Source: a virus. From it: 23,101 bases of DNA. This document shows, one piece after another, positions 688 through 20,832 of the stretch. The stretch spans positions 1-23,101 of IMG/VR virus record IMGVR_UViG_3300034109_000300; one strand, written 5' to 3'. The first letter of the stretch is position 1. Every line of letters begins with the position of its first letter. Below the pieces are notes generated by a model. That model saw only the letters and a list, made by a program, of their open reading frames with translations, had not been told where the DNA came from and made no database searches. A program made the translations under genes and the position numbers.

Positions 688-797
688 TGGGCCTCCCGTG
701 GCGTCGTCTCGCCAAGAAGCTCGGCAAGTGGCTGCTGCGCAAGGCGAGCGAAGAAGCGCTGAAAGAGTTGCAGAAGCGCAAGGAGCAGGCGAAGTGA
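687..797 (+). CDS. 36-residue cationic amphipathic peptide
   Basis: The start is the ATG in the TAATG overlap with the holin-like gene, and the stop TGA overlaps the GTG of the next gene (GTGA at 794-797). The first 20 residues contain seven Arg/Lys (6, 7, 10, 11, 14, 18, 19) and no acidic residue. Trp5, Leu8, Leu12, Trp15 and Leu16 fall on one face of a helix and the basic residues on the other. The second half (SEEALKELQKRKEQAK) is a charged helix. This is the pattern of membrane-active antimicrobial peptides and of the cationic 'disruptins' known from some phages that disrupt the outer membrane at lysis. That function is inferred from pattern and from the adjacent holin-like gene. A small nucleic-acid-binding peptide is the main alternative. 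The tight coupling on both sides argues that the reading frame is real. Confidence 0.6.
   Translation: MGLPWRRLAKKLGKWLLRKASEEALKELQKRKEQAK
780..785 (+). promoter_or_regulatory. Ribosome binding site deciding the GTG start at 794
   Basis: AAGGAG lies eight bases before GTG 794, inside the end of the preceding small gene. It selects this GTG over upstream in-frame starts, which would overlap the cationic peptide gene by over 100 bases, and over ATG 812, which would sit 26 bases away. The start therefore retains the whole N-terminal zinc-ribbon. Confidence 0.7.
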
Positions 798-1849: not shown

Positions 1850-1850
1850 C

Positions 1851-2522: not shown

Positions 2523-2525
2523 CTC

Positions 2526-3191: not shown

Positions 3192-3193
3192 TC

Positions 3194-3637
3194 ATGGCAG
3201 ACAACATCGGATATACGCCAGGCGCGGGCGCGACCATCGCGGCGGATGACATCGGCGGCGCGCTCTATCAGCGCGTGAAGCTGGCGCACGGCCCCGATGG
3301 CAGCGCCACGGATGCGAGCGACAGCGCGCCGTTGCCGGCCGTCGTCTCACGCACGGATGACCTCGTCGTCATGCTGTCGCGTATCGTCAAGCTGCTCGAG
3401 AGCAATGCGGTTGTGGACCAGCAGCAGCGCCAGCGCATCGCGCTCGATACGATTCCAGCCGGTGTCACGCTGCCGACCGTCACGACGGTCACGGGCGTGA
3501 CCACCGTGACCACCGTCGGCACCGTGACCACCCTGGCGAATGCCACCGCCATCGCCGGCATGGACCGCGAGCAGTGGATCAACGCCGCGAAGAGTGTTTA
3601 CGCGCAGTCGATTCGCGCGCGTCTCGAGTTCGTCTAG
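3194..3637 (+). CDS. Small phage structural protein with Val/Thr linker
   Basis: GGGAGGGA at 3177-3184 precedes ATG 3194 at good spacing. The 147-residue product has three parts. An N-terminal segment carries GADDIGGALYQRVKLAHGPDG-type residues (about 16-37), typical of small phage virion proteins that contain this 'VKLxxGxDG' motif. A helical region (about 54-83) follows. A Val/Thr repeat linker (95-113, built of TVTTV units) leads to a helical C-terminus ending in a short AKSVYAQSIRARLEF segment. Proteins with this architecture recur among uncultured-phage structural genes, usually next to fibre or baseplate genes. The linker suggests an elongated trimeric or anchored protein, which is inference. 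Confidence 0.65.
   Translation: MADNIGYTPGAGATIAADDIGGALYQRVKLAHGPDGSATDASDSAPLPAVVSRTDDLVVMLSRIVKLLESNAVVDQQQRQRIALDTIPAGVTLPTVTTVTGVTTVTTVGTVTTLANATAIAGMDREQWINAAKSVYAQSIRARLEFV
3476..3532 (+). repeat. Short in-frame Val/Thr-coding repeat
   Basis: ACCGTGACCACC-like units recur at 3499-3536 and upstream as variants, coding for repeated Thr-Val-Thr-Thr-Val in the structural protein at 3194-3637. It is a coding repeat in a linker and not an operator or CRISPR-type array. Length change by slippage is possible. Confidence 0.7.
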
Positions 3638-3652
3638 GACTAAAGGAGCATC

Positions 3653-6298
3653 ATGCCCGCCCTCAACAAGAACACGCTCACGCAGGCCGTAGACCTCCCG
3701 ACGTGGGAGTGGACGCGATTTGCGCCAGCCGTATCGTCGGCGCTTTCGTCGTCGTGCAGCGCCGACAACGGCAACTTCCTCGCGTCCGAATACGGTCGGT
3801 ATCTCTATTACTTGATCTCGGGCACGCAGTTCGTCAGGTATGACACGTGGACGGACATGTATCAGCAGCTCCAGTCGCCGCCGTTCACGCCGGCGACGAT
3901 GACTGCGATGAAGTTCGCGGGCACACTCGGTCCCGAGGATCGCGTCATCGCGGCCACGTCCACCACGCTGACCGTCGCGGCAGTCACGCAGGCCAGCATG
4001 GTCGGCTATGACGTGGTCATCGTGTCGGGCACGGGCGCGGGGCAGCGGCGCACGATCACGGCGGCAGCGGACCCCGTCATCGCGGACAGCGGCATCGCGA
4101 CGGCAGTGGCGAACGCGCTCGGTGGCATCACGCTGACCGACTCGACGAAGGCGTGGGGTGGCAATGCGTGGGCGGGGTATACGCTGCGCGTCGCGAACAC
4201 GCCTGCGGGCAGCGCGGGCCAGATTCGCCGCATCCTGAGCAACACGGGCACCGTGCTGACCATCGGCGATTCGACGCAGATGAGCAAGCCGTTCCACAAC
4301 CCGGCGATCTTCGCGCCGGCCATCTCCGCGACGGCGGGCTCGCAGACGACCTACGCCATCGAGTCGCAGGTGCTCACGGTCGATAGCGCGTGGGCCACGA
4401 CGCCCGATACGACGTCGGTCTATCGCATCCAGTCGGGCATGGTGCTGCTCGGCAGCGGCGGCGGCACGACGGCCACACCGGCCGCGCCGTTCTACTCGAT
4501 GCAGGCGTATGACGTCCTCACGGATTCGTGGTATGTCCTGCCCGCGTATACGAACAACTACGTGGCGGCGCTCACGGACCTCTCAATCGAGCGCACGACC
4601 GAAACCTCGTCGATCTGGGAGCGTGGCGTTGCGACGGGCGGGAGCACGACGACGCTCGTGGATGCTGCACACGGCGTGGACTTCGCCGCGTGGCGCACGA
4701 ATCAGTGGGCGGGCTACTGGGTGTTCGTCTTCTCAGGCACGGCGGCGGGCCAGATGCGCCAGATCGCCAGCAATACGGGCACCACGTTGACCTGGAGCAG
4801 CGCGGGCACCGCGCCAGACACGACGAGCCGCTACCTGATCCTCGGCTTCGACGCAGGCGTGGCGACGTCGGGCGCATCCACCACGATCACGGACTCCACG
4901 AAGGCGTGGGCCACGAACCGCTGGACCAATTACGTCGTGCGCATCCTGCACGGCACCGGCATCGGGCAGACGCGCATCATCGCCAGCAACACGGCGACGG
5001 TGCTGACCGTGCAGCAGGCATGGACGACGACACCCGATAGCACGTCGGTGTTCGCGATTCAGGCCAACCCGGACACGCTCTATCTCGTCTCTGGCGGCAA
5101 CGCGGCGATCCTCATGCACAACATGGATTCGCAGGTGGCCACGTTCGGGCGGCAGATCGACTACGGCATCGCGCGCAACGCCGCGGCGACGGTCGGCGGG
5201 CATCAGCCGGTGGCGATTGCGTCACTGTCGAACGTCACGACCACGGCGACCGTCACGACCGCACACGCGCATCAGTTCCGCGCGGGTGATCTTGTCACGG
5301 TGCGCGGCGCGACCGACGCCAACTACAACGTGACGGCGGTTGCGATTGCGACGGTGGCCTCGGCCACCACGTTCACCTTCACGATGGCGGGCACGCCCGC
5401 CTCGAACACGCTGACGGGTTCGCAGTCGACGACGACGCTCACCGACCTGACGAAAAACTGGACGACGAACGAGCACGCGGGACGGCTCGCCTACATGAAC
5501 ACGGCGGCCATCACCGCGGCCTCGGGCTCGGCCGCAGGGCAGGTGGTCCGCATCACGAGCAACACGGCCACCACGCTGACCTTCGCCGCGACCGTCACCG
5601 CCCCGACGAACGGCGTGAGCCGCTACAGCATCGCGCGCGGTGACGCGATCGGCACGCTCGATTTCGGTGTCGCGACAGGCACGCAGAGCACGACGACGAT
5701 TCAGGACACGTCGAAGAGTTGGACCGTGAACATCTACGCCGGGCGGCGTGTGCGCGTGCTTACGTCGGGTGGTCCCATCGAGGTGATCATCGCGTCGAAC
5801 ACGAGCAACACGCTGACCGTCGCCACGATCACCCTGCCAGTGACGGCCGTCACCCAATACGCGATCCTCGAGGGCAATGCAAAGGGCGTGGGCACGAGCG
5901 CGAATTGGGCCTTCGGCACGTCGAGCGAGGCGCTGCGTGGTCGCTACATGTTCATCCTGCGCGGCGGCGGCGCGTATGGCTTTGAGCGCGTGGACCTCGC
6001 GACTGATCGCATCAGAGTGATCAACACCGCGCCGCTCACGGAGACTTTCACCACCGGCTCCATGACGGCCTACGACGGCGGCGACCGCATTTACATCCAC
6101 AAGGACGCCACGCAGCGCGTCTACAGCTTGGATGTCGTCACCGGCAAGGTGAACGGCGCGAGCATGTATCCCTACGCCGCGCCGACCGCGGTGATCGGCA
6201 ACCGCATGGAGATTTTCACGACGAAGGACGGGCTGAAGTATCTCTGGCTGAACCGCGCCTCGTTCGCCGAGTGCTTCCGCTGCCTGCTCTACTGGTAG
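3653..6298 (+). CDS. Large Kelch-like propeller protein interrupted by repeat modules
   Basis: AAAGGAG at 3642-3648 precedes ATG 3653. The 881-residue product has blade-like segments of Kelch type: YLYYLISG...RYDTWTDMYQQL (50-72), AYDVLTDSWYVLPA (285-298), DTLYLVSGG (474-482), GRYMFILRGGG (763-773), DRIYIHKDA (811-819) and RMEIFTTKDG (851-860). Between them lie five clear modules of 65-100 residues (about 158-258, 327-397, 403-470, 585-661, 672-739) plus a decayed one near 100-140. Each runs D-x-T-K-x-W, then a Tyr/Gly strand, G-x-G-Q-x-R, I-x-S-N-T and a closing Tyr-x-Ile strand. Residues 524-583 form a different beta module with a HQFRAGDLVTV core. It has no enzyme motif. A large virion surface or receptor-binding protein is the best inference. 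Confidence 0.75.
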   Translation: MPALNKNTLTQAVDLPTWEWTRFAPAVSSALSSSCSADNGNFLASEYGRYLYYLISGTQFVRYDTWTDMYQQLQSPPFTPATMTAMKFAGTLGPEDRVIAATSTTLTVAAVTQASMVGYDVVIVSGTGAGQRRTITAAADPVIADSGIATAVANALGGITLTDSTKAWGGNAWAGYTLRVANTPAGSAGQIRRILSNTGTVLTIGDSTQMSKPFHNPAIFAPAISATAGSQTTYAIESQVLTVDSAWATTPDTTSVYRIQSGMVLLGSGGGTTATPAAPFYSMQAYDVLTDSWYVLPAYTNNYVAALTDLSIERTTETSSIWERGVATGGSTTTLVDAAHGVDFAAWRTNQWAGYWVFVFSGTAAGQMRQIASNTGTTLTWSSAGTAPDTTSRYLILGFDAGVATSGASTTITDSTKAWATNRWTNYVVRILHGTGIGQTRIIASNTATVLTVQQAWTTTPDSTSVFAIQANPDTLYLVSGGNAAILMHNMDSQVATFGRQIDYGIARNAAATVGGHQPVAIASLSNVTTTATVTTAHAHQFRAGDLVTVRGATDANYNVTAVAIATVASATTFTFTMAGTPASNTLTGSQSTTTLTDLTKNWTTNEHAGRLAYMNTAAITAASGSAAGQVVRITSNTATTLTFAATVTAPTNGVSRYSIARGDAIGTLDFGVATGTQSTTTIQDTSKSWTVNIYAGRRVRVLTSGGPIEVIIASNTSNTLTVATITLPVTAVTQYAILEGNAKGVGTSANWAFGTSSEALRGRYMFILRGGGAYGFERVDLATDRIRVINTAPLTETFTTGSMTAYDGGDRIYIHKDATQRVYSLDVVTGKVNGASMYPYAAPTAVIGNRMEIFTTKDGLKYLWLNRASFAECFRCLLYW
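4124..5869 (+). repeat. Diverged coding repeats in the propeller protein
   Basis: Five units fall at about 4124-4426, 4631-4843, 4859-5062, 5405-5635 and 5666-5869. They share codons for D-(S/T)-(T/S)-K-x-W near the start and SNT(A/G)TxLT near the middle. The DNA similarity is strongest around the SNT core, for example agcaacacg(g/a)gc or agcaacacggcc. The units are unevenly spaced because blade segments separate them. They look like old duplications or shuffled modules and not recent tandem copies. Confidence 0.7.
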
Positions 6299-8414: not shown

Positions 8415-8681
8415 ATGGCACGACATAAGCTGACGGGTCCAGGACCTGGGCGTCCGAAAGGCAGCGTCAACAAGTCCAAGCTCTTGTTCACGCAGCTCCT
8501 CAAGGACATCGCGGACAGTCCGGAGTATCAGGACAGTCTTCGCGAACGCGCCATCAAGGGCGACGCCACGCTCGACCGGGAAATCCTCGCCCGCGTGCTG
8601 GGGGCGGTGCCGAAGATCATGCAGATAGAGACGCCGGCTCCGCTGGTGATCGACACCGTGGATGACCGAGACCCCCAGTAA
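8415..8681 (+). CDS. Probable terminase small subunit
   Basis: The 88-residue protein starts GPGPGRPKGSVNK (about residues 8-20), the basic opening of DUF5681-like and other phage DNA-binding proteins that lie just upstream of large terminase. A helical region follows (SKLLFTQLLKDIADSP), and residues 45-70 are helix-rich. The role is inferred: recognition of phage DNA and loading of the large subunit. It overlaps the terminase large gene by 20 bases, the usual arrangement. The ribosome site is poor and partly inside the AT-rich palindrome, so translation may be controlled there. It is short compared with classical small terminases, so it may be a domain-reduced form. Confidence 0.65.
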   Translation: MARHKLTGPGPGRPKGSVNKSKLLFTQLLKDIADSPEYQDSLRERAIKGDATLDREILARVLGAVPKIMQIETPAPLVIDTVDDRDPQ

Positions 8682-9951
8682 CGCCGTCCGGCTGTCGCTC
8701 CACAAGGGGCAGGCGGCGGTCCATCGCTCGCCTGCTCGCTTCAAGGCGATGGTCGCAGGGCGCAGAACGGGCAAGACGTATCTCAGCCGCGCACGGCTGA
8801 TTGCGGGCGCGCTCAAAGTGCCGGGGCGTTACTGGTATATCGCGCCGACCCGCATCATGGCCAAGGACATTATGTGGTCGGACCTCAAGGCGGCGATCCA
8901 CCCCTCATGGTTAGCCGGCGACCCGATGGAGACGGAGCTGCGGCTGGTGTTCAAAGGTGGCGGGGAGATTCAGCTCCACGGGGCGGAAGACCCCGACAAG
9001 CTGCGCGGACGCAAGCTCGCCGGAGCGGTGTTCGACGAGTTCGCGGACGTGAAGCTGGAAGCGTGGACGGAAGCGATCCGGCCGGCGCTGGCTGATGGCA
9101 AGGGCTGGGCCGACTTCATCGGCACGCCCAAGAGCTACAACCACCTGTATGACGCCTTTCTCCGTGGACAGTCCAGCGACGAGAAGGATATCGAGTGGGC
9201 CTCGTGGCAGTTCCGCACCGTCGATAACCCGTTTATCGACCCGACCGAGATTGAAGCCGCTCGGCGGGACATGGACGAGCGCACGTTTCGGCAGGAGTTT
9301 GAGGCGTCCTTCGAGGCGATGGCGGGCCGGATTTACTACGCGTTCGAGCGCAGCAAGGACGTGCGGCCGGTGGCGCTGGATCATCACCTACCGGTGCGGA
9401 TCGGGTTCGACTTCAACGTCAACCCGGCCACGGCGGTGATCGGGCAGCAATACCAGGACGAGGTGCGCGTGTGGCGGGAAGTGTTCGTCACGCACGCGGG
9501 CGGGGAGGCGACACGGGCGAGCGCCATGCAGGCGCGGCGGCTGCTGGACATGGCCGACTTCCGGGGGGAGGTGCGTATCTACGCCGACGCCTCTGGGGCG
9601 AGCGCGAAAACGACCGGCCCATCGGACCATGCGGCGGTGCGGGAAGTGTTCCCGCTGGCGTCGTGGCACGTCCCACGGGCCAATCCCCATGTCCGGGACC
9701 GCTATGCGGCGGTCAATAGCCGGTTCTGCACGTCTGATGGCAGGAGGCATGCGGTGATCGACCCGGCCAACGTGAAGCTCATCGCGGACTTGGAGCAGGT
9801 GGTGTTCGACGAGTCGGGCGTCGAGGACCAGAAGAGCAACCCCATGCTCACGCACATCTCGTCCGCGTTCGGCTATTGGGTGCATCGGGAATGGCCACCA
9901 GTGACGAAAACCACGGGAGGCGCGGCGTATCTGCCGCAGTTGATGGTATGA
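8662..9951 (+). CDS. terL: Terminase large subunit, ATPase and nuclease
   Basis: The 429-residue protein packages phage DNA into the prohead by ATP hydrolysis and cuts the concatemer. The ATPase has Walker A AGRRTGKT (32-39), Walker B AVFDEF with Asp125 and Glu126, and a coupling motif FIGTPKSYN (152-160). The RNase H-like nuclease follows: motif I RIGFDFNVNP with Asp250, and motif II RIYADASG with Asp309. The third motif, usually H-x-x-D-A, reads THISSAFGYW, so Ser401 stands where the acid is expected. GGTGAT lies 12 bases before ATG 8662, and the gene overlaps the small subunit by 20 bases. The last bases overlap the HTH gene (ATGA at 9948-9951). Identity is secure; the nuclease change needs checking. 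Confidence 0.92.
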   Translation: MTETPSNAVRLSLHKGQAAVHRSPARFKAMVAGRRTGKTYLSRARLIAGALKVPGRYWYIAPTRIMAKDIMWSDLKAAIHPSWLAGDPMETELRLVFKGGGEIQLHGAEDPDKLRGRKLAGAVFDEFADVKLEAWTEAIRPALADGKGWADFIGTPKSYNHLYDAFLRGQSSDEKDIEWASWQFRTVDNPFIDPTEIEAARRDMDERTFRQEFEASFEAMAGRIYYAFERSKDVRPVALDHHLPVRIGFDFNVNPATAVIGQQYQDEVRVWREVFVTHAGGEATRASAMQARRLLDMADFRGEVRIYADASGASAKTTGPSDHAAVREVFPLASWHVPRANPHVRDRYAAVNSRFCTSDGRRHAVIDPANVKLIADLEQVVFDESGVEDQKSNPMLTHISSAFGYWVHREWPPVTKTTGGAAYLPQLMV

Positions 9952-10190: not shown

Positions 10191-11837
10191 GTGGCGCGTC
10201 AGGATGTTCCGCTCGCTCGGCAGGCGATCGCCCCGCACCCGGCGTATATCGTCTGGCAACCGCTCTGGCAGCAGTTGCTCGACGTGTATGAGGGCGGCGG
10301 CGGCTTTGTCGACACGACACGGCCGTACCTCTACGCGCACCCCCGCGAATGGCTGGACCACTCTATCCTCGTCGATGGGAAGTGGGTCTCCAATCCGAAC
10401 CCGACGCAGGCCAGCCCGAAGCTCAAGGCACGGCGGCGCATCGCCCGTTACGAGAACATCGCGGCCACGCTGATCGAGCAGCTTAAGTCGGCGCTGTTCC
10501 GCAAGGCGGCGACGCGGGGCTTCGCGGACCCAGCGCGCATCGACGCGAACAACCCCCTGCGCGCCTTCTGGGAGAACGCAGACGGGCTCGGTCACTCCAT
10601 CAATGCGGTGATGCCTGAGCAGTGGACGTCGGCCGCGGTCTTCGGCCACACGGTCATCATGGCCGACCGCATGGGCGAGACGGGCGCCACGGCCGCGGAC
10701 CAGCCTCCGGTGGTCCTGCGGGGGTATACGCCGCTCGACCTGATCGACTGGCTCACCGATGACCTCGGCGGGCTCACGGCCGTCCGGCTGCTGGAAGCGG
10801 TCAGGCGCGACAGCTTCGACACGCCCGCGTCGGCGATTCTCTCGCAGGTGCGGACGGTCACGGACACCGGCTGGACGATCACGCCGCTCGAAAAGCTCGG
10901 CGTGCCTGGGCGCGGGCTGAGGCCGGCGAAGGGCGCGGACATTGAGGAGGGCGACCACGGCTTCGGCGCGCTGCCGGTGGTCGTGCTGTATGCCCGTCGC
11001 CGGTCCCTCGCGCCGACGATTGGCCGCTCGGTGCTCGGCGATCCGGCGCTCTACATCGACCTCTACAACCTCACTAGCGAAGTGCGGGAACTGCTGCGGA
11101 ATCAGACGTTCGCGTTGCTCAATGTCCCGCTTGGCGGCGACGGCAGCATCGAGCGCGAGAGCACGCTGCTCGGGCAGACGTCGGGCACGCAGAATGTGGT
11201 GTTCTCGTCGGCGCCGATTAACTACGTGAGCCCTGACGGCACCAACGTCCAGGTGTATCACGAGCACATCGACCGGCTGGTGCGCCTGATCTACCGGCTC
11301 GCGGTCATCGGCTGGGAGAGCGATAGCCGAGACGCCGAGTCAGGCGATAGCCGCAAGCTCAAGAAGGAAGACCTCCACCAGATGCTCGCGGGCTACGCGG
11401 CCGAGTGTGAAGCCGCCGAGGTCTCGCTGGCAAAGCTGGTCTATCGCGCTCACTACGGGGAACGGTGGCAGGCGCAGTGGGACGCGGACCAGCCGATTAT
11501 CAGCTACCCCGACGACTTCGACGTGGCCGGGCTGCTTGATGAACTCGAGGCGGTCACGCAGGGCATCGCGTTGGAGCTGGGCGAGACGGCCACGAAGGAA
11601 ATGAAGAAGCGGGCGGTGCCGAAGCTGCTGCCCAACCTGCCGCAGTCGGTCGCGGACACCATCGAGAAGGAAATCGCCGCGATGGAGTTCAAGTCGGCCG
11701 ACCAGCGCGAGCGCGAGATGATGGCGATGCGGTTCCCGTCCGCGCAGGGCGACGGCGATCCTGGTGATCCGGGCGAACCGCCGATGCGGGACGAGCCCGA
11801 GGACGACGAATCTGACGACGAGGAGGCGTCCGCGTAA
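10191..11837 (+). CDS. Portal protein (DUF4055-like)
   Basis: The 548-residue protein lies between terminase and Mu gpF-like genes, the standard portal position. Recognisable segments are PAYIVWQPLWQQLLDVYEGG near residues 17-36, TRPYLYAHP (43-51), ARYENIAATLIEQL (84-97), a GYTPLDLIDWLTDD region and the ALYIDLYNLTSEVRELLRNQTFALLNV helix that matches DUF4055-type portals. The portal forms the 12-subunit ring through which DNA enters and leaves, and contacts terminase and adaptor. Start is GTG 10191, since an in-frame TGA lies two codons before. There is no clear ribosome site. The C-terminus is acidic (RDEPEDDESDDEEASA), perhaps a packaging-related tail. Confidence 0.85.
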   Translation: MARQDVPLARQAIAPHPAYIVWQPLWQQLLDVYEGGGGFVDTTRPYLYAHPREWLDHSILVDGKWVSNPNPTQASPKLKARRRIARYENIAATLIEQLKSALFRKAATRGFADPARIDANNPLRAFWENADGLGHSINAVMPEQWTSAAVFGHTVIMADRMGETGATAADQPPVVLRGYTPLDLIDWLTDDLGGLTAVRLLEAVRRDSFDTPASAILSQVRTVTDTGWTITPLEKLGVPGRGLRPAKGADIEEGDHGFGALPVVVLYARRRSLAPTIGRSVLGDPALYIDLYNLTSEVRELLRNQTFALLNVPLGGDGSIERESTLLGQTSGTQNVVFSSAPINYVSPDGTNVQVYHEHIDRLVRLIYRLAVIGWESDSRDAESGDSRKLKKEDLHQMLAGYAAECEAAEVSLAKLVYRAHYGERWQAQWDADQPIISYPDDFDVAGLLDELEAVTQGIALELGETATKEMKKRAVPKLLPNLPQSVADTIEKEIAAMEFKSADQREREMMAMRFPSAQGDGDPGDPGEPPMRDEPEDDESDDEEASA

Positions 11838-12709
11838 TGGCGGAACAGGATCGCCTTCAGCTCATCGGCCAAGCCTTCGCGTCACTTGCAGACACGGAAT
11901 CGGCGCGCTTCTCGCGTGAGCTCGGCCGCGTGCTGGCCGCGCTCGAGCGTGACCTGCTCGGACTCGTCGCGGGCGTGCGTGAAGGCCGGCGGGGCGTGCT
12001 GGCGCGTGTCGGGCGGCTGCTCACGCTCCGCACGGAAATCCGTCAGGCGCTCGAAGCGTCGGGGTATTCGGCGCTGATCACCCGCGCCAGTCTCGATGCC
12101 GTAGAGCGCATGGCGGCGACGGCCACGGGCCGGATCGTCACGCAGGGCGCGGCGATGGGGCGTGTCTCACCGGAACGCTTGCGCGTGCTAGCCGAACTGA
12201 TGCGGGCCGACCTGTTGGGCGTGGGGGAGACGCTGGCGCACCAGGTCTGGCGCTCGGCGATGTTCTCCGTCTACACCGACCGCCCTGTCTCGGAGATTGT
12301 CGGCGTGCTGGCGAAGGCGATCGAGAAGTCTCGCGCCCAGGCGCAGACGTTGTTCGACACGCAGGTGAGCATCGTCGGCCGGCAGATTGTCGCGGCGGAA
12401 CCGACAGCCGACGACCAGCAGGCGTATCTCTATGTCGGGCCGGTGGATGGCATGGTGCGCGAGTGGTGCCTGTCGCAGATCGGCATGGTGCGCACGCAGC
12501 CGGCGATTGAAGCGCTCGATAACGGCCAGTTGCCGAATCCGTTCATCACGGGCGGGGGCTACAACTGCCGGCATAGCTGGATGGCCGTGTCCGATCCAGA
12601 ACTCATCGCGCTCGCGGATACGGGCACGCGTGCGCCGGGATTCGGGGAGCGCGTGGATCGTGCGCGAGCGTTCAAGGCGGGGCGGAAGACGCAGCGGAGT
12701 GCCGCGTGA
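11837..12709 (+). CDS. Mu gpF-like head morphogenesis protein
   Basis: ATG 11837 overlaps the portal stop (TAATG). The 290-residue protein has an N-terminal helical region (about 1-190) and a C-terminal domain with the layout of phage Mu gpF-like proteins. That layout is YVGPVDGMVREWCL (199-212), I-x-x-L around 224-227, and GGGYNCRHSW (239-248) with Cys211, Cys244 and His246 as the probable metal-binding or structural set. Mu gpF is a minor head protein made next to the portal, used in head assembly and sometimes in DNA entry. It is smaller than many members of this family. The stop overlaps the ATG of the next membrane peptide (TGATG at 12707-12711). Confidence 0.85.
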   Translation: MAEQDRLQLIGQAFASLADTESARFSRELGRVLAALERDLLGLVAGVREGRRGVLARVGRLLTLRTEIRQALEASGYSALITRASLDAVERMAATATGRIVTQGAAMGRVSPERLRVLAELMRADLLGVGETLAHQVWRSAMFSVYTDRPVSEIVGVLAKAIEKSRAQAQTLFDTQVSIVGRQIVAAEPTADDQQAYLYVGPVDGMVREWCLSQIGMVRTQPAIEALDNGQLPNPFITGGGYNCRHSWMAVSDPELIALADTGTRAPGFGERVDRARAFKAGRKTQRSAA

Positions 12710-12810
12710 TGGACGCGCTCGTGGCGTTCGTCATCACGCTCGCCGTGGCGGGCGTCGTGTTCGCGGGTGCGGTCCTGTGGGCGTTCTGGCGCGTGCTGAG
12801 GGATGCATGA
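12709..12810 (+). CDS. 33-residue single-span membrane peptide
   Basis: This is a very short gene with a fully overlapping context: ATG in the preceding TGATG, and its TGA inside the next gene's ATGA (12807-12810). The product is almost one transmembrane helix: hydrophobic ALVAFVITLAVAGVVFAGAVL (about residues 3-23), then a Trp/Phe/Arg tail (WAFWRVLRDA). The helix is flanked by an Asp and by Arg, suggesting N-out or N-in insertion. It is too short for a class I/II holin but the right size for a small membrane toxin or a lysis regulator. Strong coupling to head genes argues it is real. No function can be assigned. Confidence 0.5.
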   Translation: MDALVAFVITLAVAGVVFAGAVLWAFWRVLRDA

Positions 12811-13106
12811 GCTTCACCGTGCGTCGCGTGAATCTCGACCTCAAGGACGTGTCCATTGTGACGCGTGAGGACATGGCCGCTGTCGGACAGATGCTCCGGC
12901 AGCGGATCATCGAACGGACGGCCCGTGGCGTGGATGCGTCGGGGCAACCGTTCGCCGCGTATTCAGACGGCTACGCGAAGACCAAGCGCGAAGCCGGAGT
13001 TGGCACGGGTGGCGTAGACCTGACGGTGAGCGGCGAGATGCTGCGCGCCATCACGATCGATGTCGCCCCGGACGCAAAGTCCGTCACCTTGAGCTTCGCC
13101 CGCTAA
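12807..13106 (+). CDS. Virion morphogenesis/tail completion protein, N-terminal part
   Basis: The 99-residue product matches the first half of phage virion morphogenesis (Mu gpG/tail completion) proteins: RQRIIERTARGVDASGQPFA (about residues 30-49), YSDGYAKTKR, and VDLTVSGEMLRAITI (69-83), then a closing strand SVTLSFAR. The usual family continues with a segment that has a conserved DFFG/RDF sequence. Here that follows in the next gene in another frame. The ATG overlaps the membrane peptide stop (ATGA). The stop TAA at 13104-13106 overlaps the next ATG. Role: end of the head-tail joining set. Confidence 0.75.
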   Translation: MSFTVRRVNLDLKDVSIVTREDMAAVGQMLRQRIIERTARGVDASGQPFAAYSDGYAKTKREAGVGTGGVDLTVSGEMLRAITIDVAPDAKSVTLSFAR

Positions 13107-13309
13107 TGGCCAAGCGCAAGGGACCGACGCTGATTCAACGCTCGCGGGCCATCAGTCCGCAGCAGAAGGCGATCTATCACGCCGTGACGGGCGCGGGCAA
13201 GTCCCGCGTGGTGCGTGACTTTTTCAACGTCGGCCCCGGCGATGCCGAGGCCATTACGCGGCTGCTTCAAAGCCGCATCACGACGCGCTTACAGCGCGGG
13301 AACGCGTAA
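13106..13309 (+). CDS. Virion morphogenesis protein, C-terminal part in another frame
   Basis: The 67-residue product starts at ATG 13106 in the TAATG junction. It carries AIYHAVTGAGKSRVVRDFFNVGPGDAEAI at about residues 22-50. That matches the last third of virion morphogenesis proteins, where R-(D/E)-F-(F/L)-G-L precedes a helix. So the function encoded by one gene in most phages is divided into two overlapping genes here. An added basic N-terminal segment (MAKRKGPTLIQRSRAISP) lies between. The two products probably act together. The gap-free reinitiation TAATG argues for two peptides. An ancient frameshift is the other view. Confidence 0.7.
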   Translation: MAKRKGPTLIQRSRAISPQQKAIYHAVTGAGKSRVVRDFFNVGPGDAEAITRLLQSRITTRLQRGNA

Positions 13310-13320
13310 GGAGACGCCAG

Positions 13321-14037
13321 ATGGCGGATACGTTGACGGTCGAACTCGACGAAAGCGGCGGCATTAAGACGCTGCCGGAACAGTTGCAGCGATTTCTCGA
13401 TAAGCGCATCGACGAAGCCTACAAGAAGGGCGCGGACAAGACCGAGAAGGCCCTGTCCCCTCATCTGGCCGATCCGGTCGAGATCGAGAAACTGCGCCAG
13501 CGCGCCAAGCAGGCCGACGAGCTCGAAATCGGCGTGCTCGAACGCGACAAGCGCTACGAGGAAGCCCTCAGCCTGCGCGACAAGAAGAACGCCGAGCTGA
13601 TTGCGGCGGAACAGGCCAAGACATCGGCGGCGGTGAAACGCGTGCGCGAGTCGGTGGCCAAAAGCATTCGGGCGGCGGCGGCGACCTCTGGGGCGCGTGC
13701 CGAGAGCCTGGACGAACTGGAGCGCCTGCTGGGCGCGGAAGTAGACCTCGACGACACACTCACGGAATTTGTCAAGGACGCGGATGGGAAACCTCGCGTC
13801 GACGACAAGGGCCAGCGCGTGACGATCGAGGGTTTGGTGGCGGACTACCTGAAAACGCACGCCCATCACGTCGCGGTGGCCCCGGCCAAGGGGGGCAAAG
13901 CGCCCGGTGGGACGACGTTTGCGGGGCGCCCGCCTGTCGCCGGCGATGCGCGGTCAGACGCTCGGGCCAAAGTGGCCGAGAATCCGACCGAGGCGAACAT
14001 CGGCGCACTTCTCAAGGCTGCGACCAGTCGCACGTAA
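13321..14037 (+). CDS. Scaffold protein
   Basis: AAGGAG at 13308-13313 precedes ATG 13321. The 238-residue protein is acidic and basic by turns, with a long helical coiled coil (about residues 15-120: LDKRIDEAYKKGADKTEKAL, EIEKLRQRAKQADELEIGVLERDKRYEEAL), then helix-rich regions and a Gly/Pro/Ala-rich C-terminus. This composition and its place directly before the major capsid protein fit a scaffolding protein that guides capsid assembly and leaves before DNA packaging. No separate capsid protease is visible nearby, so how the scaffold is removed is unclear. The two genes are 12 bases apart. Confidence 0.8.
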   Translation: MADTLTVELDESGGIKTLPEQLQRFLDKRIDEAYKKGADKTEKALSPHLADPVEIEKLRQRAKQADELEIGVLERDKRYEEALSLRDKKNAELIAAEQAKTSAAVKRVRESVAKSIRAAAATSGARAESLDELERLLGAEVDLDDTLTEFVKDADGKPRVDDKGQRVTIEGLVADYLKTHAHHVAVAPAKGGKAPGGTTFAGRPPVAGDARSDARAKVAENPTEANIGALLKAATSRT

Positions 14038-14049
14038 GGAGCTACACTC

Positions 14050-15207
14050 ATGCCGTTTACCGGCCTCTCGTCCAACGAACGCTTCACTGCCAACCAGGTG
14101 CAGGAGGATGTCGCCGCTGCGGTGGCGGCGCTCTCCCCCAAGGAGACGGCGCTGCTCGACTTCCTCGGGGATTCGAGCGTCTTCGCCTTCTCCACCCGTC
14201 ACGAATACTTTCAGGACTTCCTCGTCCCGAACCGGATCATCGCCTCGACGGCGGTGAACTCGGCCACGGCGGCGACGGGCATCCAGATCAACGGGCTCGG
14301 CCTTGCGCTGACCGTGGGCACGCTGCTCGAGAACGAAGTCTCGGCCGAAGTGCTCCAGATCACGAGCATTCCCGGCCCGAACTCGATTCTCGTCTCTCGC
14401 GGCTACGGGCCGAGCGGCACCATCGGCTCGCTCGTGGCGGGCGGTGAGTTCTACGTGCGCGCCTTCGCGGGCGTGGAAGGCGGCGACCACAACGGCTCGT
14501 CCGTGCGTCGTCTCGGCACGCGTCTCGCGAACACCGTGGGGCTGTTCCGCGCCGAGGTGGCGATGAGCGGCACCGACATGGCGCTCGAGCTCTACGGCAA
14601 CGACGGCTACGCGTCGGCGCAGGCGAAGGCGCTCACGCAGATGCTGTGGGGCCTCGAGAACGAAGTGCTGCGCGGCGTGCTCAACGGCGTGAACTCGCTC
14701 GGCACGTTCTCGCAGGCCACGGGCCTCGGTGAGACCCGCACGATGCAGGGACTGCGGACGTTCCTGACCACGATCAACTCGACGGTGGTGGCGTCGTCCT
14801 TCACGGCGAACCCGCACCTCTACATCGGCGATGCCTTCTCGAACATCTTCGACCAGGGCGGTTCACCGAATGAGACGTGGGCCATCGTCGCCGGCCGGAA
14901 CCGCTACCGCGCGATTTCGGACCTGAACGACACCCGCGTCGAAGACAGCAACCAGCTTGAGGAATTCAAGCGGGTGATTCGTCGCTACCGTGGGCCGTTC
15001 GGCTCGGCGGAAGTCATCCTCGCCCGTGCGCTCGGCAACGACGAGGCGCTGATCATCCCGCGTGAGCGCGTGAAGGTCGTGCCGTTGCAGGGCCGGTCGT
15101 TCTCGATCGAGGCGATGGCGAAGGCGGGCGACAACGAGAAGTCGCTGCTCACGGGCGAATACACGCTCGAAGTGCATCACCAGAACGCGATGGCGCGCAT
15201 CCGGTAA
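14050..15207 (+). CDS. Major capsid protein, SU10/DUF5309-like
   Basis: AAGGAG at 14036-14041 precedes ATG 14050. The 385-residue protein has features of the SU10-type (DUF5309) HK97-fold capsid proteins: ALSPKETALLDFLGDS (27-42), FSTRHEYFQDFLVP (47-60), then ITSIPGPNSILVSRGYGPSGTIGSL (104-128), a characteristic RGYGPSGTIGS turn. The middle region has helical segments with NTVGLFRAEV and the C-terminal end has LLTGEYTLEVHHQNAMARIR. No delta domain or protease site is obvious at the N-terminus, so cleavage is not indicated. It follows the scaffold gene and precedes a strong hairpin. HK97-fold membership is a family inference; the match to this group is good. Confidence 0.85.
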   Translation: MPFTGLSSNERFTANQVQEDVAAAVAALSPKETALLDFLGDSSVFAFSTRHEYFQDFLVPNRIIASTAVNSATAATGIQINGLGLALTVGTLLENEVSAEVLQITSIPGPNSILVSRGYGPSGTIGSLVAGGEFYVRAFAGVEGGDHNGSSVRRLGTRLANTVGLFRAEVAMSGTDMALELYGNDGYASAQAKALTQMLWGLENEVLRGVLNGVNSLGTFSQATGLGETRTMQGLRTFLTTINSTVVASSFTANPHLYIGDAFSNIFDQGGSPNETWAIVAGRNRYRAISDLNDTRVEDSNQLEEFKRVIRRYRGPFGSAEVILARALGNDEALIIPRERVKVVPLQGRSFSIEAMAKAGDNEKSLLTGEYTLEVHHQNAMARIR

Positions 15208-15267
15208 TGCATACCCCCGAGATGGCACGGCCGACGCCGTAGCCTCGACGGTGGCTGCTGTGCCCAC

Positions 15268-15297
15268 GCCCGGTGTCGGATTCGTCCGGCACCGGGC
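15268..15297. terminator. Strong GC hairpin after the major capsid gene
   Basis: GCCCGGTGTCGG (15268-15279) and CCGGCACCGGGC (15286-15297) pair over 12 bases, with one G-U pair, around the loop ATTCGT. No T run follows, only ACCTTACC. It is 60 bases after the capsid stop and 33 bases before the next gene, inside the largest gap of the window. It may partly stop transcription, or protect the abundant capsid mRNA 3' end, so that capsid is made more than the downstream proteins. An intrinsic terminator of classical form is not supported. Confidence 0.55.
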
Positions 15298-15330
15298 ACC
15301 TTACCAACCTCACTTGAGGCAGTGAGATAC

Positions 15331-15525
15331 ATGGACCCGATACTCGACGAAATGCGGCGGCTGAAGTCGCCGAGCGATATCCGCGACTCCAGATTCCGCG
15401 ACTGGACTGACTACCTGTGTGCGCTGGTGGCGAAGAAGGACGACGAGATTGCGTCGCTCAAGGCGCGCCTTGACGAGAAGCGCGGCCCCGGTCGCCCCCG
15501 GAAAGACGAGGCGGCGCATGAGTAA
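15331..15525 (+). CDS. Small helical protein with basic AT-hook-like tail
   Basis: The 64-residue product is helical (MDPILDEMRRLKSPSDIRD, then LVAKKDDEIASLKARLDEK) and ends in RGPGRPRKDEAAHE, with a GRPRK core like AT-hook or nuclear-type basic motifs found in some phage proteins. ATG 15331 is preferred to GTG 15322: GAGG at 15316-15319 sits only two bases before the GTG and 11 before the ATG. The spacing is long, so either start is possible. The gene overlaps the glycosyltransferase-methyltransferase gene by eight bases (ATGAGTAA), so it is probably coupled to it. It may bind nucleic acid or dock on the large enzyme; no proof. Confidence 0.6.
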   Translation: MDPILDEMRRLKSPSDIRDSRFRDWTDYLCALVAKKDDEIASLKARLDEKRGPGRPRKDEAAHE

Positions 15526-18466
15526 CCGCCTGACCTGGCTGTTCCACGTGGACAGCGTGCCGATGACGGCCGATGTCGTCGCCGGCAAGACGTCCCTCGG
15601 TGGATCGGAGTCGGCCTGCCTCGGACTGGCGCGGGCGCTCACGCGGCGCGGTCATGACGTGTTCATCGCGGCGACGAAGCTCTCCTCCGACGTGCCGGAC
15701 ACCGACGCGCACGGCGTGCGCTGGATCGCCTCGGAAGACTTGCCGACCGCGCAGAAGCTCATCGACGCCGACGTGTTCGTGTCGCTGCGCCAGCCGCACG
15801 TGTTCTCGCTCGGCGTGCAGGCGCGCTACCGGATGCTGTGGAATCAGGACATGCTCACGGGCGGGCCTGACGGCGACGTGAAGAAGCAGCTCATGGCGCT
15901 CTCGTGGGCGTATGACGAGATCGCCTACGTCTCCGAGTATCACCGCAAGCAGTGGGAAGGCGTGGCTCCTGAGTTGGCCCCGCTCGGCTGGGTGACGAAG
16001 AACGGCTTCGACGCGGCCCTCGTGCCGACTGACGTGGAGCGCGTGCCGAATCGCATCATCCACATCAGCCGCCCCGAACGGGCGATGACGCCGATTCTCG
16101 CGATGTGGCCGGAACTGAAGCGCCGCGTCCCTGATGCGGAGCTGCACATCTGCCGCTACCAGTCGATGTATGACGGCGAGGGCTCGAACGTCAAGGCGAT
16201 GGTCGAAGCCTACGACCGCGAGATCGCCCGCGTGAACGCGGAAGTTGGCGGGATTGTCTCGCTCGGCCAGCTGGCCAAGCCGGAACTCTATCGCGCCCTC
16301 GCGTCGGCCTCGGTCATGTGGTATCCGGGCGTCGTGGACTTCGCGGAGACGTCCTGCATCGCGGCCATCGAAGCGCAGGCGTGCGGCACGCCCATCGTGT
16401 GCAGCTACAAGGGCGCGCTGCCGGAGACGGCCCCGGCCGCATACCACGTCAAGGGTGACGCGATGTCGCCCGAGTATCAGGCAGAGAGCATCGATACCGT
16501 GGCGATGGTGCTCAAGCACGGCGAGAAGATGGGCGTATGGAATGGCCTTCAGCACGTCCAGTCCTACACCTACGACGCCATCGCCGCCGAGTGGGAATCG
16601 CACGTGTGGGACCGCTTCACGACGCGCAGCGCCAACACGGAGCGCATCATCGACGCCCTCGTGCATGAAGACGACTACTGCGCCGCCCTGCCTCTGATGA
16701 CCGATCAGGCGCAGATCGCGGACGCCATGCGCGTGATTCGCGGCGAGGAACAGGGCGCGGAAGCTTACGGGAAGTTCGCACTCGACCCCGAAGCCGAGAT
16801 GACCACGCACAAGCAGGCGCGGCACGCGGCGGTGGTGCAGGCGTTCGAGGGCAAGAAGCGCATTCTTGATCTGGCCTGCGGCAACGGGGCGTTTGCGATC
16901 CTGCTGGCGGAAGCCGACCCGGAACGCACGGTCGTCGCCATCGACTACAGCGCGCAGAACATCGTCGCGGCCAAGGCGGCGGCTGAACGGCACGGCGTCG
17001 CGGATCGCGTGGATTTCCGACACGCCACAGTCTGCGACTTGGAAACGGGCGCGTTCTCTGAAGAGTTTGAGCTGATGCTCGTGGGCGCGCCTGACGGCCT
17101 GTTCCTCGGCGAGTTCTTGGAGCACGTCGCCGGATCGGCGCGGCTTATGACCGACCTTGCCTACAAGCTTGGCTCTGGCGTGTCTGTCGTGGCGACCGTG
17201 CCCTCGGGGCCGTTCTCCGAGATGATGCCCGTGGACATGGTGAAGCAGCGCGGCCACGTCCACCACTACCGCCCGCGGGATTTGCAGGAGATGTTCGGCG
17301 GGCAGGACGCGTTCACGGTCGATTACCTCGACTGCGGCATCTCGCCCCGTGGTGCGGCGCTGGGGCACTGGATCATCCGCTACGCCACGCACACGCAGAA
17401 GCCCGTCCAGCCCCGACCGCTGGCGCACTGGCATCGCACCATGCGCCCGAAGCAGCGCCTCTCGTGGGGCATTCTGGCGCACAACGCGACCAAAGACCTC
17501 AACGCCTGCCTGACGTCCATCTGGCAGATCGCCGACGAGATCATCGTGGCCGATACCGGCTCTGATGACCGCGCCGAACTGGAGCACATCTGCGACCGCT
17601 GGGGCGCAACGCTGTTGACGCTCCCCCCGGTGCAGCGCCTTGAGGGCGGATTCTCGCAGGCGCGGAATATCACGATGGACGCTTCGTCTGGCGAGTGGTT
17701 CGGCTGGATTGACGCCGACGAAGTGCTCGTCGGCCACGGCGGGCTCCGCAAATACCTGGAGTCGGGGCCGTTCAAGGGATACGCGATCTTCCAGAACCAT
17801 CTCATGATCGACTGCCCGAAGCACGCGGATACGCCCGTCCGGGTGTTTCGCAAGCGGCCCGACATCGAGTTCTACGGCGTCGTCCATGAACAGCCGCAGA
17901 TGGGCGACTGCAACGGCGACATCCTGCCGGCGCTTCAGTTGTTCGACGTCCAGATTGCCCATACGGGTTACCTCACCGAACAGGTGCGGCGCGTCAAGTC
18001 CACGCAGCGCAACCTGCCGCTCCTGATGCGGGATCGTCAGGTGTTCCCGGATCGGCAGTTGGGCATCGTGCTCGTGATTCGCGATCTCATCACGCAAGCA
18101 GCGTGGCGCGTGGAAGCGAACCGAGGCCAGACGGACGCGTCGGTGTGGGAGATGTATCGGCAGGCCATCGCCCTGTTCGAAACGAATTTCTTGGACCCGC
18201 ACCACCGGCTGCATTTCCTCGCGCGACCCTTCTACGAGTCGGCCGTGAAACATGTGGCCGGCGCGCTCGAGACGGAATACGCGCTCGGCGGGATGGCGGG
18301 TGGGCTGAAGGGACGGCACGCCAAGCCCGAGACGTTCTGGGTCCGCACGCAGGCGCATCTGCCCGCGATGCTGGACTACTACCAGCAGAAGGCGCTCAGG
18401 GTCTATGAGCCGATCCCGCTGGACGTCGAGCCGTGGGTGCCGGTGCGTGACGAGGTGATGGCATGA
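15518..18466 (+). CDS. GT4 glycosyltransferase - methyltransferase - GT2 glycosyltransferase fusion
   Basis: The 982-residue protein joins three catalytic domains. Residues 1-370 are a GT-B/GT4-type transferase with LGGSESACLGLARAL (28-42), nucleotide-sugar half HISRPERAM (182-190), and the E-x7-E motif Glu277...Glu285 in FAETSCIAAIEAQACGTPIV. Residues about 430-630 are a class I SAM methyltransferase: motif I ILDLACGNGAFA (449-460), acidic Asp476 in VVAIDYS, and EFLEHV (532-537). Residues about 645-800 are a GT-A/GT2 transferase like SunS: LSWGILAHNATKDLNACL (648-665), VADTGSDD (677-684), FSQARN (712-717) and the DAD metal site (732-734). A helical C-terminus follows (820-960). Start ATG 15518 overlaps the preceding gene; the end overlaps the adaptor gene (ATGA). 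It probably builds a methylated glycan on virion proteins; the acceptor is unknown. Soluble, no signal peptide. Confidence 0.85.
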   Translation: MSNRLTWLFHVDSVPMTADVVAGKTSLGGSESACLGLARALTRRGHDVFIAATKLSSDVPDTDAHGVRWIASEDLPTAQKLIDADVFVSLRQPHVFSLGVQARYRMLWNQDMLTGGPDGDVKKQLMALSWAYDEIAYVSEYHRKQWEGVAPELAPLGWVTKNGFDAALVPTDVERVPNRIIHISRPERAMTPILAMWPELKRRVPDAELHICRYQSMYDGEGSNVKAMVEAYDREIARVNAEVGGIVSLGQLAKPELYRALASASVMWYPGVVDFAETSCIAAIEAQACGTPIVCSYKGALPETAPAAYHVKGDAMSPEYQAESIDTVAMVLKHGEKMGVWNGLQHVQSYTYDAIAAEWESHVWDRFTTRSANTERIIDALVHEDDYCAALPLMTDQAQIADAMRVIRGEEQGAEAYGKFALDPEAEMTTHKQARHAAVVQAFEGKKRILDLACGNGAFAILLAEADPERTVVAIDYSAQNIVAAKAAAERHGVADRVDFRHATVCDLETGAFSEEFELMLVGAPDGLFLGEFLEHVAGSARLMTDLAYKLGSGVSVVATVPSGPFSEMMPVDMVKQRGHVHHYRPRDLQEMFGGQDAFTVDYLDCGISPRGAALGHWIIRYATHTQKPVQPRPLAHWHRTMRPKQRLSWGILAHNATKDLNACLTSIWQIADEIIVADTGSDDRAELEHICDRWGATLLTLPPVQRLEGGFSQARNITMDASSGEWFGWIDADEVLVGHGGLRKYLESGPFKGYAIFQNHLMIDCPKHADTPVRVFRKRPDIEFYGVVHEQPQMGDCNGDILPALQLFDVQIAHTGYLTEQVRRVKSTQRNLPLLMRDRQVFPDRQLGIVLVIRDLITQAAWRVEANRGQTDASVWEMYRQAIALFETNFLDPHHRLHFLARPFYESAVKHVAGALETEYALGGMAGGLKGRHAKPETFWVRTQAHLPAMLDYYQQKALRVYEPIPLDVEPWVPVRDEVMA

Positions 18467-19323
18467 GTTGGCACCCCGGTGATCTGCTCAATGACTCGGA
18501 CCTCGTGGCGTATGAGGGCCAGATCCTCAAGCGCTTCGGCGTCGAGAATTGGGAAGCGCGACGCACGAAAGTGCTGGAGGACTGGCTCTGGCCGCAGCTC
18601 CGCGTGGCCGGGTTTGCCCCGGAGCGTTTCCGCACGCGGCATACGGCGGATGTCGTCTACGGCGTGACTTCCGGCGTGTTCACGGACGTCACCGACGCGG
18701 CCACGAACGCCACGACGGACGACATCGATCTGGCGGCCACACTCGCGGCGTCCTCGGACTATCTCGCCATCGGCTCGGCGCAGCAGTTCCGCGGCGTGTC
18801 GGTGCGCATGCTGGACGCGGTGTCCACGGTGGGCTCCACCCTGACCGTCGAACTCTGGCGCGATGCATGGCGCGCCGTGCAGGTGAGCGACGAGACGCGG
18901 GCGACGCCGCACCGGCCGTTCTCGAGGGGCGGGTCGGTCATCTGGGCGGTGCCGCACGACTGGGTGCTGCGGTCGCTGAATCACTCGGCGCCGTATTACT
19001 ACGCCCGTCTCCGGCTGTCTGCCGTGCCGACGTCGGCGCGCATCGGGCAGATCACGACCATCCGTCGCTCGGTGCTCTGCGGTCCGGTGGCCTACAAGGT
19101 GCTGGCATCCATTTTTCGCGAAGCGCCGATGACGCAGGATGGACCGTGGGCGGATCGGGCGACCTACTACGAGACCGAGGCCGCCCTGGCGTTTCAGCGG
19201 GCGCTGGCGCTCGTGGGCGGCGAGTTCGACGCGGACGCGCCGACCGATGACGTGCTCGACCGCGACGACGAAGCGCAGACGCGGGACACGGCCGGCAGTC
19301 CCTTCCGATGGGAGCGCGCCTGA
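18463..19323 (+). CDS. Head-tail adaptor/connector candidate with inserted beta domain
   Basis: The 286-residue product begins in the ATGA overlap. Residues 1-55 are helical (YEGQILKRFGVENWEARR, LEDWLWPQLRVAGF). Residues about 207-252 are also helical (VAYKVLASIFREAPMT, YYETEAALAFQRALALV) and followed by an acidic Asp-rich tail. Those two parts resemble the helical core of head-tail adaptors (gp6/gp15-like). Between them, residues 65-200 are a beta-rich block (SVRMLDAVSTVGSTLTVELWR, YYYARLRLSAVPT) that looks like an inserted jelly-roll or Ig-like domain. It occupies the connector position between capsid and tail terminator. The assignment is by position and helical pattern. Confidence 0.65.
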   Translation: MSWHPGDLLNDSDLVAYEGQILKRFGVENWEARRTKVLEDWLWPQLRVAGFAPERFRTRHTADVVYGVTSGVFTDVTDAATNATTDDIDLAATLAASSDYLAIGSAQQFRGVSVRMLDAVSTVGSTLTVELWRDAWRAVQVSDETRATPHRPFSRGGSVIWAVPHDWVLRSLNHSAPYYYARLRLSAVPTSARIGQITTIRRSVLCGPVAYKVLASIFREAPMTQDGPWADRATYYETEAALAFQRALALVGGEFDADAPTDDVLDRDDEAQTRDTAGSPFRWERA

Positions 19324-19767: not shown

Positions 19768-20832
19768 ATGGCAGGATACACGGGACGAGAAGGCGCGTTT
19801 GCCTTCGCCAAGCACGGCACGAACTCGTGGGCGGTGGCGGCGTCCGTCACGAAGGGCGCGTATTTCGCGTCGGACGGCGGGGCCACCTACGCGCCTCAGC
19901 GCGTCGACGATGACGCCTTCGGGCAGGCGTTCCTCGGCGCGGGCGACTTCGGCAACGTCACCGCCGTGGACATCACCCTGATGCAGCGGGCGCGCTACGA
20001 TGACTGGAGCTATATCATCGAGGCGCTGGCGATGGGCTCGCCGGCGGCGGTGACGCTCTCGACGTCGGCCACTGGGCAGGTGACGTCCTGGCAGCACGTC
20101 ATCGACCTCGCGCCGTCGATTGACGGGCTCGGCATGACGACGGCCATTGATAAGGTGCAGTTCGTCGATGAGCTGACCAGCGCGAAGGTCTACGGCTTCT
20201 CCTTCGGCCTCGGCGATTCCGGCGTGTTCGATGAGTCGTTCAAGCTGCTCGGCACGCAGATGACGAACATCTCGTCGGTGAACACGCGCTCGACGGTCAA
20301 CGGCGCGACGTTCAAGGCGCTCGACAATCGCGTCTTCGAGAAGCAGACGACGGTGCGACTGAACGCGCAGGCGGCGGGCTCGCTCACGGCGGCGGATGCC
20401 ATCCAGGTCGAAGCGATCGAGTGGAGCTTCGAGCGCCCGCAGGATGCGCCGTATGTGACGGGGCAGGACTTCATCTTCGAGCCCGGCGACAACGGGCACC
20501 CGCAGATCACGCTGTCGTGGACCTATCCGCGCATGAGCACCGTCAGTGCGAACTCGCTGTATCAGGCGCTCAGGGCGGATACCGATTTCAAGGCCGACAT
20601 CACCGCGCTCGGCGCGCTCATCAATTCGACCGACCGCTACACGATCCGGTATCAGTTCCCGCACCTGGAGCTGAATACGTGGCAGGCGAACGTCACTGGC
20701 CCGAATCAGGTGAAGCCGGTGGCGACGTGGACGGCCAAGCAGGCGGTGACGTCTCCGAGCGGGATGCCGTTCACACGGCCGTTCCGGCTCACGCGCATCA
20801 TGACCAACTCGCTCGCCGCCTTCGTGGCGTAG
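19768..20832 (+). CDS. Major tail tube protein candidate
   Basis: AGGAG (19756-19760) precedes ATG 19768. The 354-residue product is beta-rich with few Cys, directly upstream of the tail-chaperone gene, which is the usual tube position. Segments include VAVDITLMQRARYDDWSYIIEAL (about 67-89), AVTLSTSATGQVTSW (93-107), KVYGFSFGLGDSGVFDES (132-149), VEAIEWSFERPQD (214-226) and RFRLTRIMTNSLAAFVA-type end. The size suggests two tube-type domains. The protein would stack as rings around the tape measure and form the DNA channel. No sheath gene is nearby. Assignment is by position, abundance-type strong ribosome site and fold pattern. Confidence 0.75.
   Translation: MAGYTGREGAFAFAKHGTNSWAVAASVTKGAYFASDGGATYAPQRVDDDAFGQAFLGAGDFGNVTAVDITLMQRARYDDWSYIIEALAMGSPAAVTLSTSATGQVTSWQHVIDLAPSIDGLGMTTAIDKVQFVDELTSAKVYGFSFGLGDSGVFDESFKLLGTQMTNISSVNTRSTVNGATFKALDNRVFEKQTTVRLNAQAAGSLTAADAIQVEAIEWSFERPQDAPYVTGQDFIFEPGDNGHPQITLSWTYPRMSTVSANSLYQALRADTDFKADITALGALINSTDRYTIRYQFPHLELNTWQANVTGPNQVKPVATWTAKQAVTSPSGMPFTRPFRLTRIMTNSLAAFVA

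Follow-up and report, generated by a model that had tools for sequence, protein, structure and literature searches.

Enzymes that unite two glycosyltransferase (GT) domains and one methyltransferase (MT) domain in a single chain have been described from an algal virus and from a bacterium. A064R of PBCV-1 builds and O-methylates the sugars of the capsid glycoprotein (PMC9614988), and WsaE of Geobacillus stearothermophilus is a soluble trifunctional enzyme composed of two rhamnosyltransferase domains and a 2-O-methyltransferase (PMC2943079). In phages, fused GT and MT domains encoded in the structural-gene left arm are known from the cluster J mycobacteriophages, such as Omega gp16 with two GT domains and LittleE gp17 with an MT-GT arrangement (PMC3706429). 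That phages can glycosylate their virions with enzymes of their own is established for Che8 and Corndog, in which virion proteins need the GTs Che8 gp110 and Corndog gp38 to become glycosylated (PMC12363180, citing Freeman 2023).

The stretch of DNA analyzed here (the window, 23,101 nucleotides of IMG/VR record IMGVR_UViG_3300034109_000300) encodes a GT4-MT-GT2 fusion of 982 amino acids at 15518-18466, on the plus strand like all window genes named below, for which a role resembling that of A064R and the Che8 and Corndog enzymes is predicted. The fusion, A064R and WsaE each combine two GT domains with an MT domain in a single polypeptide, but the order GT4-MT-GT2 matches neither of the known enzymes. 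A064R is a GT-GT-MT protein of 638 amino acids with GTs of other folds and families, comes from an algal virus and makes the terminal part of an N-glycan, whereas WsaE carries its MT at the N-terminus and acts, outside any virus, on a bacterial S-layer glycan attached to a lipid carrier. We expect the fusion to work in the manner of these two enzymes and place it beside them, not as a member of their type. The cluster J proteins have two domains at most and vary among sister phages instead of forming a fixed core gene, and the passages of PMC12363180 on the Che8 and Corndog GTs mention no three-domain fusion. The GmaR/SunS family shares the DxD, HE(Q) and C-terminal HxGY...RN motifs with the GT2 domain, yet its known enzymes are not fused to GT4 and MT domains. 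In phage ctKR88 (MW202524; 3147-7307), a gene that closely follows the one for the capsid protein also fuses a GT4 to a GT2, but in the reverse order GT2-TPR-GT4, with a TPR region replacing the MT and a Lys in place of the second Glu of E-x7-E. Two additional GT genes also lie close behind the capsid gene of this unrelated phage, and MT genes occur further on. A Foldseek search against viral models returned the multi-domain GT/MT phage proteins A0A6J5M7M7 and A0A6J5T3W3 with poor overall superposition (rmsd ~29), and proteins of this multi-domain kind are likely to occur in other uncultured phages.

Viral trifunctional GT-GT-MT enzymes, the bacterial trifunctional WsaE, phage MT-GT fusions and phage virion glycosylation are thus known already. 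Three features appear to be new, as we did not find them in the openly licensed literature: the domain order, the standing of the fusion as a fixed core gene of a lineage of tailed phages, and the inteins at its catalytic motif. The three-domain order had been called unfamiliar in the first-pass annotation, which holds in so far as that literature offers no phage precedent, but is tempered by the viral GT-GT-MT arrangement of A064R and the phage MT-GT arrangement of LittleE gp17.

The reading frame and its three domains

The fusion is translated from a single stop-free frame, and its AlphaFold model, built from 28 homologues, reached a pLDDT of 90.2 and a pTM of 0.89. Pfam matches to all three domains exceed the gathering cut-offs (Glyco_trans_1_4 4.9e-07, Methyltransf_31 4e-11, Glycos_transf_2 4.2e-08). 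The N-terminal domain (residues 1-370, 15518-16627; PF13692) is modeled with a GT-B fold, and residues 1-371 of the model align to MshA, BshA, PimA and sucrose-phosphate synthase with Z scores of 29-32 in VIA-align. This modeled fold and the E-x7-E motif (E277 and E285, 16346-16372) assign the domain to the GT4 family, members of which also came up when profiles of solved structures were searched. Foldseek matches of the whole protein comprise MshA/PimA-like GT4 enzymes and SunS/ThuS, with SdgB also among them. A helical linker seen in the secondary structure of the model (residues 371-430, 16628-16807) leads to the MT domain (residues 431-632, 16808-17413; PF13847, PF13649 and PF13489), which scores 43 bits against PF13847 at a cut-off of 27 and matches profiles of the solved structures 3bus and 6uv6, the latter a D-glucose O-methyltransferase, as well as UbiG and tRNA enzymes. 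Its glycine-rich SAM motif and family profile predict a class I SAM methyltransferase.

In a profile search of solved structures, the GT2 domain (residues 645-855, 17450-18082; PF00535) matched GmaR (22ao) with an E-value of 9.5e-32 over 197 residues and SunS (7msp) with 3.4e-21. The similarity spans ~195 residues including the acceptor-side motifs, and this profile together with the DxD, HE(Q) and HxGY...RN motifs predicts a transferase of the GmaR/SunS type. The remaining C-terminal region (residues 856-982, 18083-18463) is mostly helical in the model, carries no assigned family and belongs to the least conserved stretches of the protein.

These results bear out the first-pass description of one continuous 982-residue GT4-SAM methyltransferase-GT2 frame: the profile searches and structure prediction it had proposed as a check recovered all three domains, the motifs lie where it had placed them (E277/E285, DLACGNG 451-457, EFLEHV 532-537, DTGSDD 679-684, DAD 732-734), and the GT2 is indeed SunS-like, with GmaR and SunS as nearest relatives. 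The overlaps it had reported are likewise real, with 8 bases shared with a small open reading frame of ~64 amino acids (15331-15525), which was found in near relatives only, and 4 bases with the next gene starting at 18463. Its placement of the gene between capsid and adaptor is right as to the head-gene slot, but the gene directly upstream is this small reading frame, and the capsid gene precedes the latter.

Its further concern, that a sequencing error or an assembly fusion of separate genes had produced the frame, would be in keeping with the metagenomic source, but is refuted by the relatives of the gene. Contigs from three IMG datasets carry the same protein at 100 % identity (L002, L003 and L006, the last with the first 364 residues only), and G001, a record of 37.4 kb, shares 21.6 kb with the window at 99 %. 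A profile search found relatives on 70 viral contigs with identities down to 28 %, none of which has a split gene. Among the 43 distinct capsid-linked loci that reach the fusion, 35 are complete and unbroken, eight run off the contig and none is split; further distant homologues comprise eight complete fusions and two that are complete apart from an intein. Because GT4 motifs served as seeds in the search for distant homologues, MT-GT2 relatives without GT4 would escape, a bias from which the capsid-based search is free. With identical copies in separate datasets and the same architecture in diverged homologues, an artefact joining separate genes has practically no probability left and was ruled out. 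No match to the fusion in the isolated-phage collection spans more than 34 % of its length, and we found no cultured member of the group.

Residues of the catalytic motifs are nearly invariant. E277, E285, D476, E532, E535, H536, R716, N717, D732, D734 and E735 as well as H790, E791, H815, G817 and Y818 are identical in all 46 distinct complete proteins, and in the SAM motif G457 is kept in 46, D451 and G455 in 45 of 46. DTGSDD is poorly kept (D679 in 36/46), while DAD and H790-E791 are invariant. One homologue (L107, 9438-12419) has lost the nucleotide-binding DTGS motif of the GT2 (VATNDESEDL) and retains the DxD and HE motifs. Estimated dN/dS ratios of 0.05-0.37 overall in six pairs, with constraint on all three domains, show purifying selection on each of them. 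A regulatory or scaffolding protein with dead catalytic sites, conceivable since GmaR is described as an antirepressor (PMC9638930), is very improbable, because 45-46 of the 46 homologues retain each catalytic residue, whichever of the three domains it belongs to.

Three homologues are interrupted by inteins at one identical point within E-x7-E, between the positions of S279 and C280 (16354/16355 in the window). In L008 (4377-6551) the intein starts with Cys and contains an HNH match, in L193 (3944-7753) it starts with Pro and contains HNH as well, and in L198 (3953-7414) it starts with Pro and has no HNH match. The Intein_splicing profile gave 6.3e-17 for L193, and 1.5e-08 and 1.2e-07 for L008 and L198, the latter two just under the Pfam cut-off. 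With a Pro start and a block F Cys, the inteins of L193 and L198 resemble class 3, but by eye they seem to be missing two residues of its WCT motif, W and T. The differing first residues and contents suggest at least two intein invasions. Inteins usually insert near the active sites of essential enzymes (PMC7664689), and their placement here fits an indispensable GT4 activity, short of proof.

A core gene of the head module

The fusion lies among genes for the terminase large subunit (8662-9951; phrog_2 1.6e-44), the portal protein (10191-11837; phrog_145 9.9e-37) and a major capsid protein of the SU10_MCP family (14050-15207; PF17236 2e-40, phrog_1328 2.7e-33) on one side and a head-tail adaptor-like protein (18463-19323; AF2 pLDDT 81) on the other. 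Further downstream follows a conserved, co-inherited tail protein (19768-20832), which is a tube candidate by position and conservation and matches no Pfam or PHROG family. Core status was assessed on loci collected by the capsid protein alone, which gave 57 distinct loci. The fusion occupies the same slot at 43 of these, and the remaining 14 end 0-903 bp past the capsid gene; the gap from capsid to fusion is 224 to 2168 bp where known. The fusion follows at every capsid locus with enough downstream sequence, and in most complete loci its stop overlaps or abuts the adaptor start by 4 or 1 bases, in the window as ATGA. Pairwise distances of the fusion follow those of the capsid protein (Mantel r 0.86), the portal (0.83) and the adaptor (0.81), and this co-divergence is as tight as that of the three with each other (capsid-adaptor 0.82, capsid-portal 0.80). 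The fusion is a core gene of the head module located between the capsid and adaptor genes. An optional or moron gene was rejected, as no relative lacks the fusion wherever the sequence extends far enough. Phage GTs are usually seen as optional, whereas here a 3-kb gene for an enzyme of three predicted activities is as fixed as the portal and capsid genes.

The fusion also occurs in a second, unrelated head module. An alphaproteobacterial Mu-like prophage (G269 contig 83, L201) encodes a homologue with 31 % identity, separated by 3 bp from a following head-tail adaptor gene of the Mu gp36 family, with a Mu-type portal (PF06074), a head protease and a capsid protein of PHROG 1005 instead of 1328 upstream and a tail tube gene downstream. 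Since the fusion precedes the adaptor among different portal and capsid families, the slot is kept in this module too, although ~4.2 kb of other reading frames, one of them weakly like a type I restriction N-terminus, lie between capsid and fusion. The gene context typical of virion glycosylation, a transferase encoded among structural genes, is therefore found in both the window's group and the Mu-like module. The stable association with head genes, seen in two modules of different families, would remain unexplained if the fusion modified a host protein or small molecule to aid late infection, as could be imagined from the similarity of its GT2 to GmaR and SunS, which act on flagellin or a peptide; we regard such a target as unlikely.

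In bacterial genomes outside phage contigs, we found single-domain matches only (199 genomes of the family of a Xanthobacteraceae metagenome-assembled genome, 385 of its class and 398 of its phylum). Besides the known contig of that assembly (L040), full fusion matches came from G269 and from a pseudomonadotal contig (G752 contig 29, L204/L205), both among phage structural genes. These three hint at hosts within the Pseudomonadota, but L040 and G752 look like phage contigs, for which binning is a weak guide. On the G752 contig, a reading frame past the tail genes resembles PurM by eye.

Many members of the group may be temperate, because 10 of 17 larger records have an integrase match, and the fusion may also have a role during lysogeny. 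Sets of GT4, GT2 and MT enzymes are typical of O-antigen and exopolysaccharide loci, so the fusion might, in infected or lysogenic cells, alter a glycan of the host surface or a precursor of that glycan and thereby block superinfection. Conversion genes, though, usually adjoin the integrase and vary, whereas the fusion is fixed in the structural operon across the whole group. The combination of GtrA flippase and membrane-bound GT known from Gtr serotype conversion was not found in the 17 records searched: GtrA-type flippases (PF04138) gave no match in them, while control genomes matched, and the fusion has no predicted membrane segment (no 19-residue stretch with hydropathy above 1.6). Modification of the host surface accordingly appears improbable.

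Proposed donors, acceptor and order of transfer

We consider the fusion to be a soluble trifunctional enzyme whose product is a short, O-methylated glycan attached to a virion protein, a reading to which we assign a probability of about 60 %. The fusion would be made together with the late head proteins and draw on the nucleotide sugars and SAM of the host cytoplasm. Two or more sugars would be transferred to the virion protein by the GT2 and GT4 domains, and the MT would O-methylate a sugar. Among the 17 larger records, 16 have no PF00534 match other than the fusion, and in the 17th no protein reaches the threshold; in 15 of the 17, the fusion is also the sole PF00535 protein. Being nearly the only phage GT, it has to work unaided or together with enzymes of the host, and since no other phage GT is around, it should both start and extend the chain. 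In the L028 record (G007), three more GT2 matches in three frames lie at 12585-16929 besides the fusion. Sugar nucleotidyltransferases (PF00483) gave no match in the 17 records, with controls matched, so the host presumably supplies the sugar donors.

DNA-glycosylating phage GTs are known (Pyle 2024, as cited in PMC12619734), and the transferases could correspondingly glycosylate a modified phage base that the MT methylates. The 17 records, though, have no match to thymidylate synthase/dCMP hydroxymethylase (PF00303; controls matched), and the fusion does not adjoin replication genes, which makes DNA hypermodification a rather remote explanation; a search for TET/JBP (PF12851) gave no match but was uninformative, as the control also remained without one. 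With no predicted membrane segment, and with no flippase, nucleotidyltransferase or thymidylate-synthase-type modifier in the 17 records, the virion-directed enzyme that we favor is most likely cytoplasmic and supplied with host donors.

The GT2 is the probable starter because it matches GmaR and the peptide transferase SunS including the acceptor-side motifs. In the order we prefer, the GT2 would place the protein-linked sugar, the GT4 would extend it and the methyl group would form a cap, as in A064R and WsaE. The opposite order, with a GT4 starter, may also hold, as GT4-type protein transferases such as SdgB exist. The first-pass annotation had proposed virion glycosylation in steps following the polypeptide, from first sugar to methyl to second sugar. 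Virion glycosylation is the most likely role and its link to head genes is real, but the stepwise order finds no support: in WsaE the N-terminal MT adds the terminal methyl cap (PMC2943079), a precedent on which we rejected reading the reaction order from the domain order, and the reverse is at least as likely for the fusion, whose C-terminal GT2 groups with the protein-acting GmaR and SunS. The range of acceptors used by GT4 and GT2 families is very wide, and the MT could act on something else.

The most likely acceptor is a head or neck protein, which is favored only by gene order, and gene order by itself does not single one out. In the adaptor, a discoidin/CBM32-like jelly roll is inserted at residues 58-205, which best matches the portal-tail chain of phage LME-1 (9efk_M, Z 16.5), followed by contractile-injection baseplate and CBM32/discoidin domains (Z 7-10, with CBM32-type domains at Z 7-8); we speculate that it binds the glycan made by the fusion. 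A lineage-wide extension is possible, though we hold it tentatively: glycan synthesis would be a fixed step of head assembly, in which, for every particle, one enzyme equips a protein of the head or neck with a methylated sugar chain, the CBM32-like domain of the adaptor may recognize this chain, the enzyme would have moved into or from the unrelated Mu-like module, and its catalytic site would be valued enough to host independent inteins. Virion glycosylation, with an enzyme that we infer to be essential or nearly so, may be basic to particle making in a large uncultured group. As a single expressible gene, the fusion also offers a natural enzyme chain for methylated glycans on proteins.

A scan for Ser/Thr-rich segments as candidate acceptor sites gave nothing decisive, with the richest stretches in proteins encoded before the terminase gene (15/30 residues in one of 881 amino acids). 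The region upstream of the terminase gene (641-6298) encodes large Thr/Ser-rich proteins with no Pfam or PHROG match, which are possibly tail or adsorption proteins.
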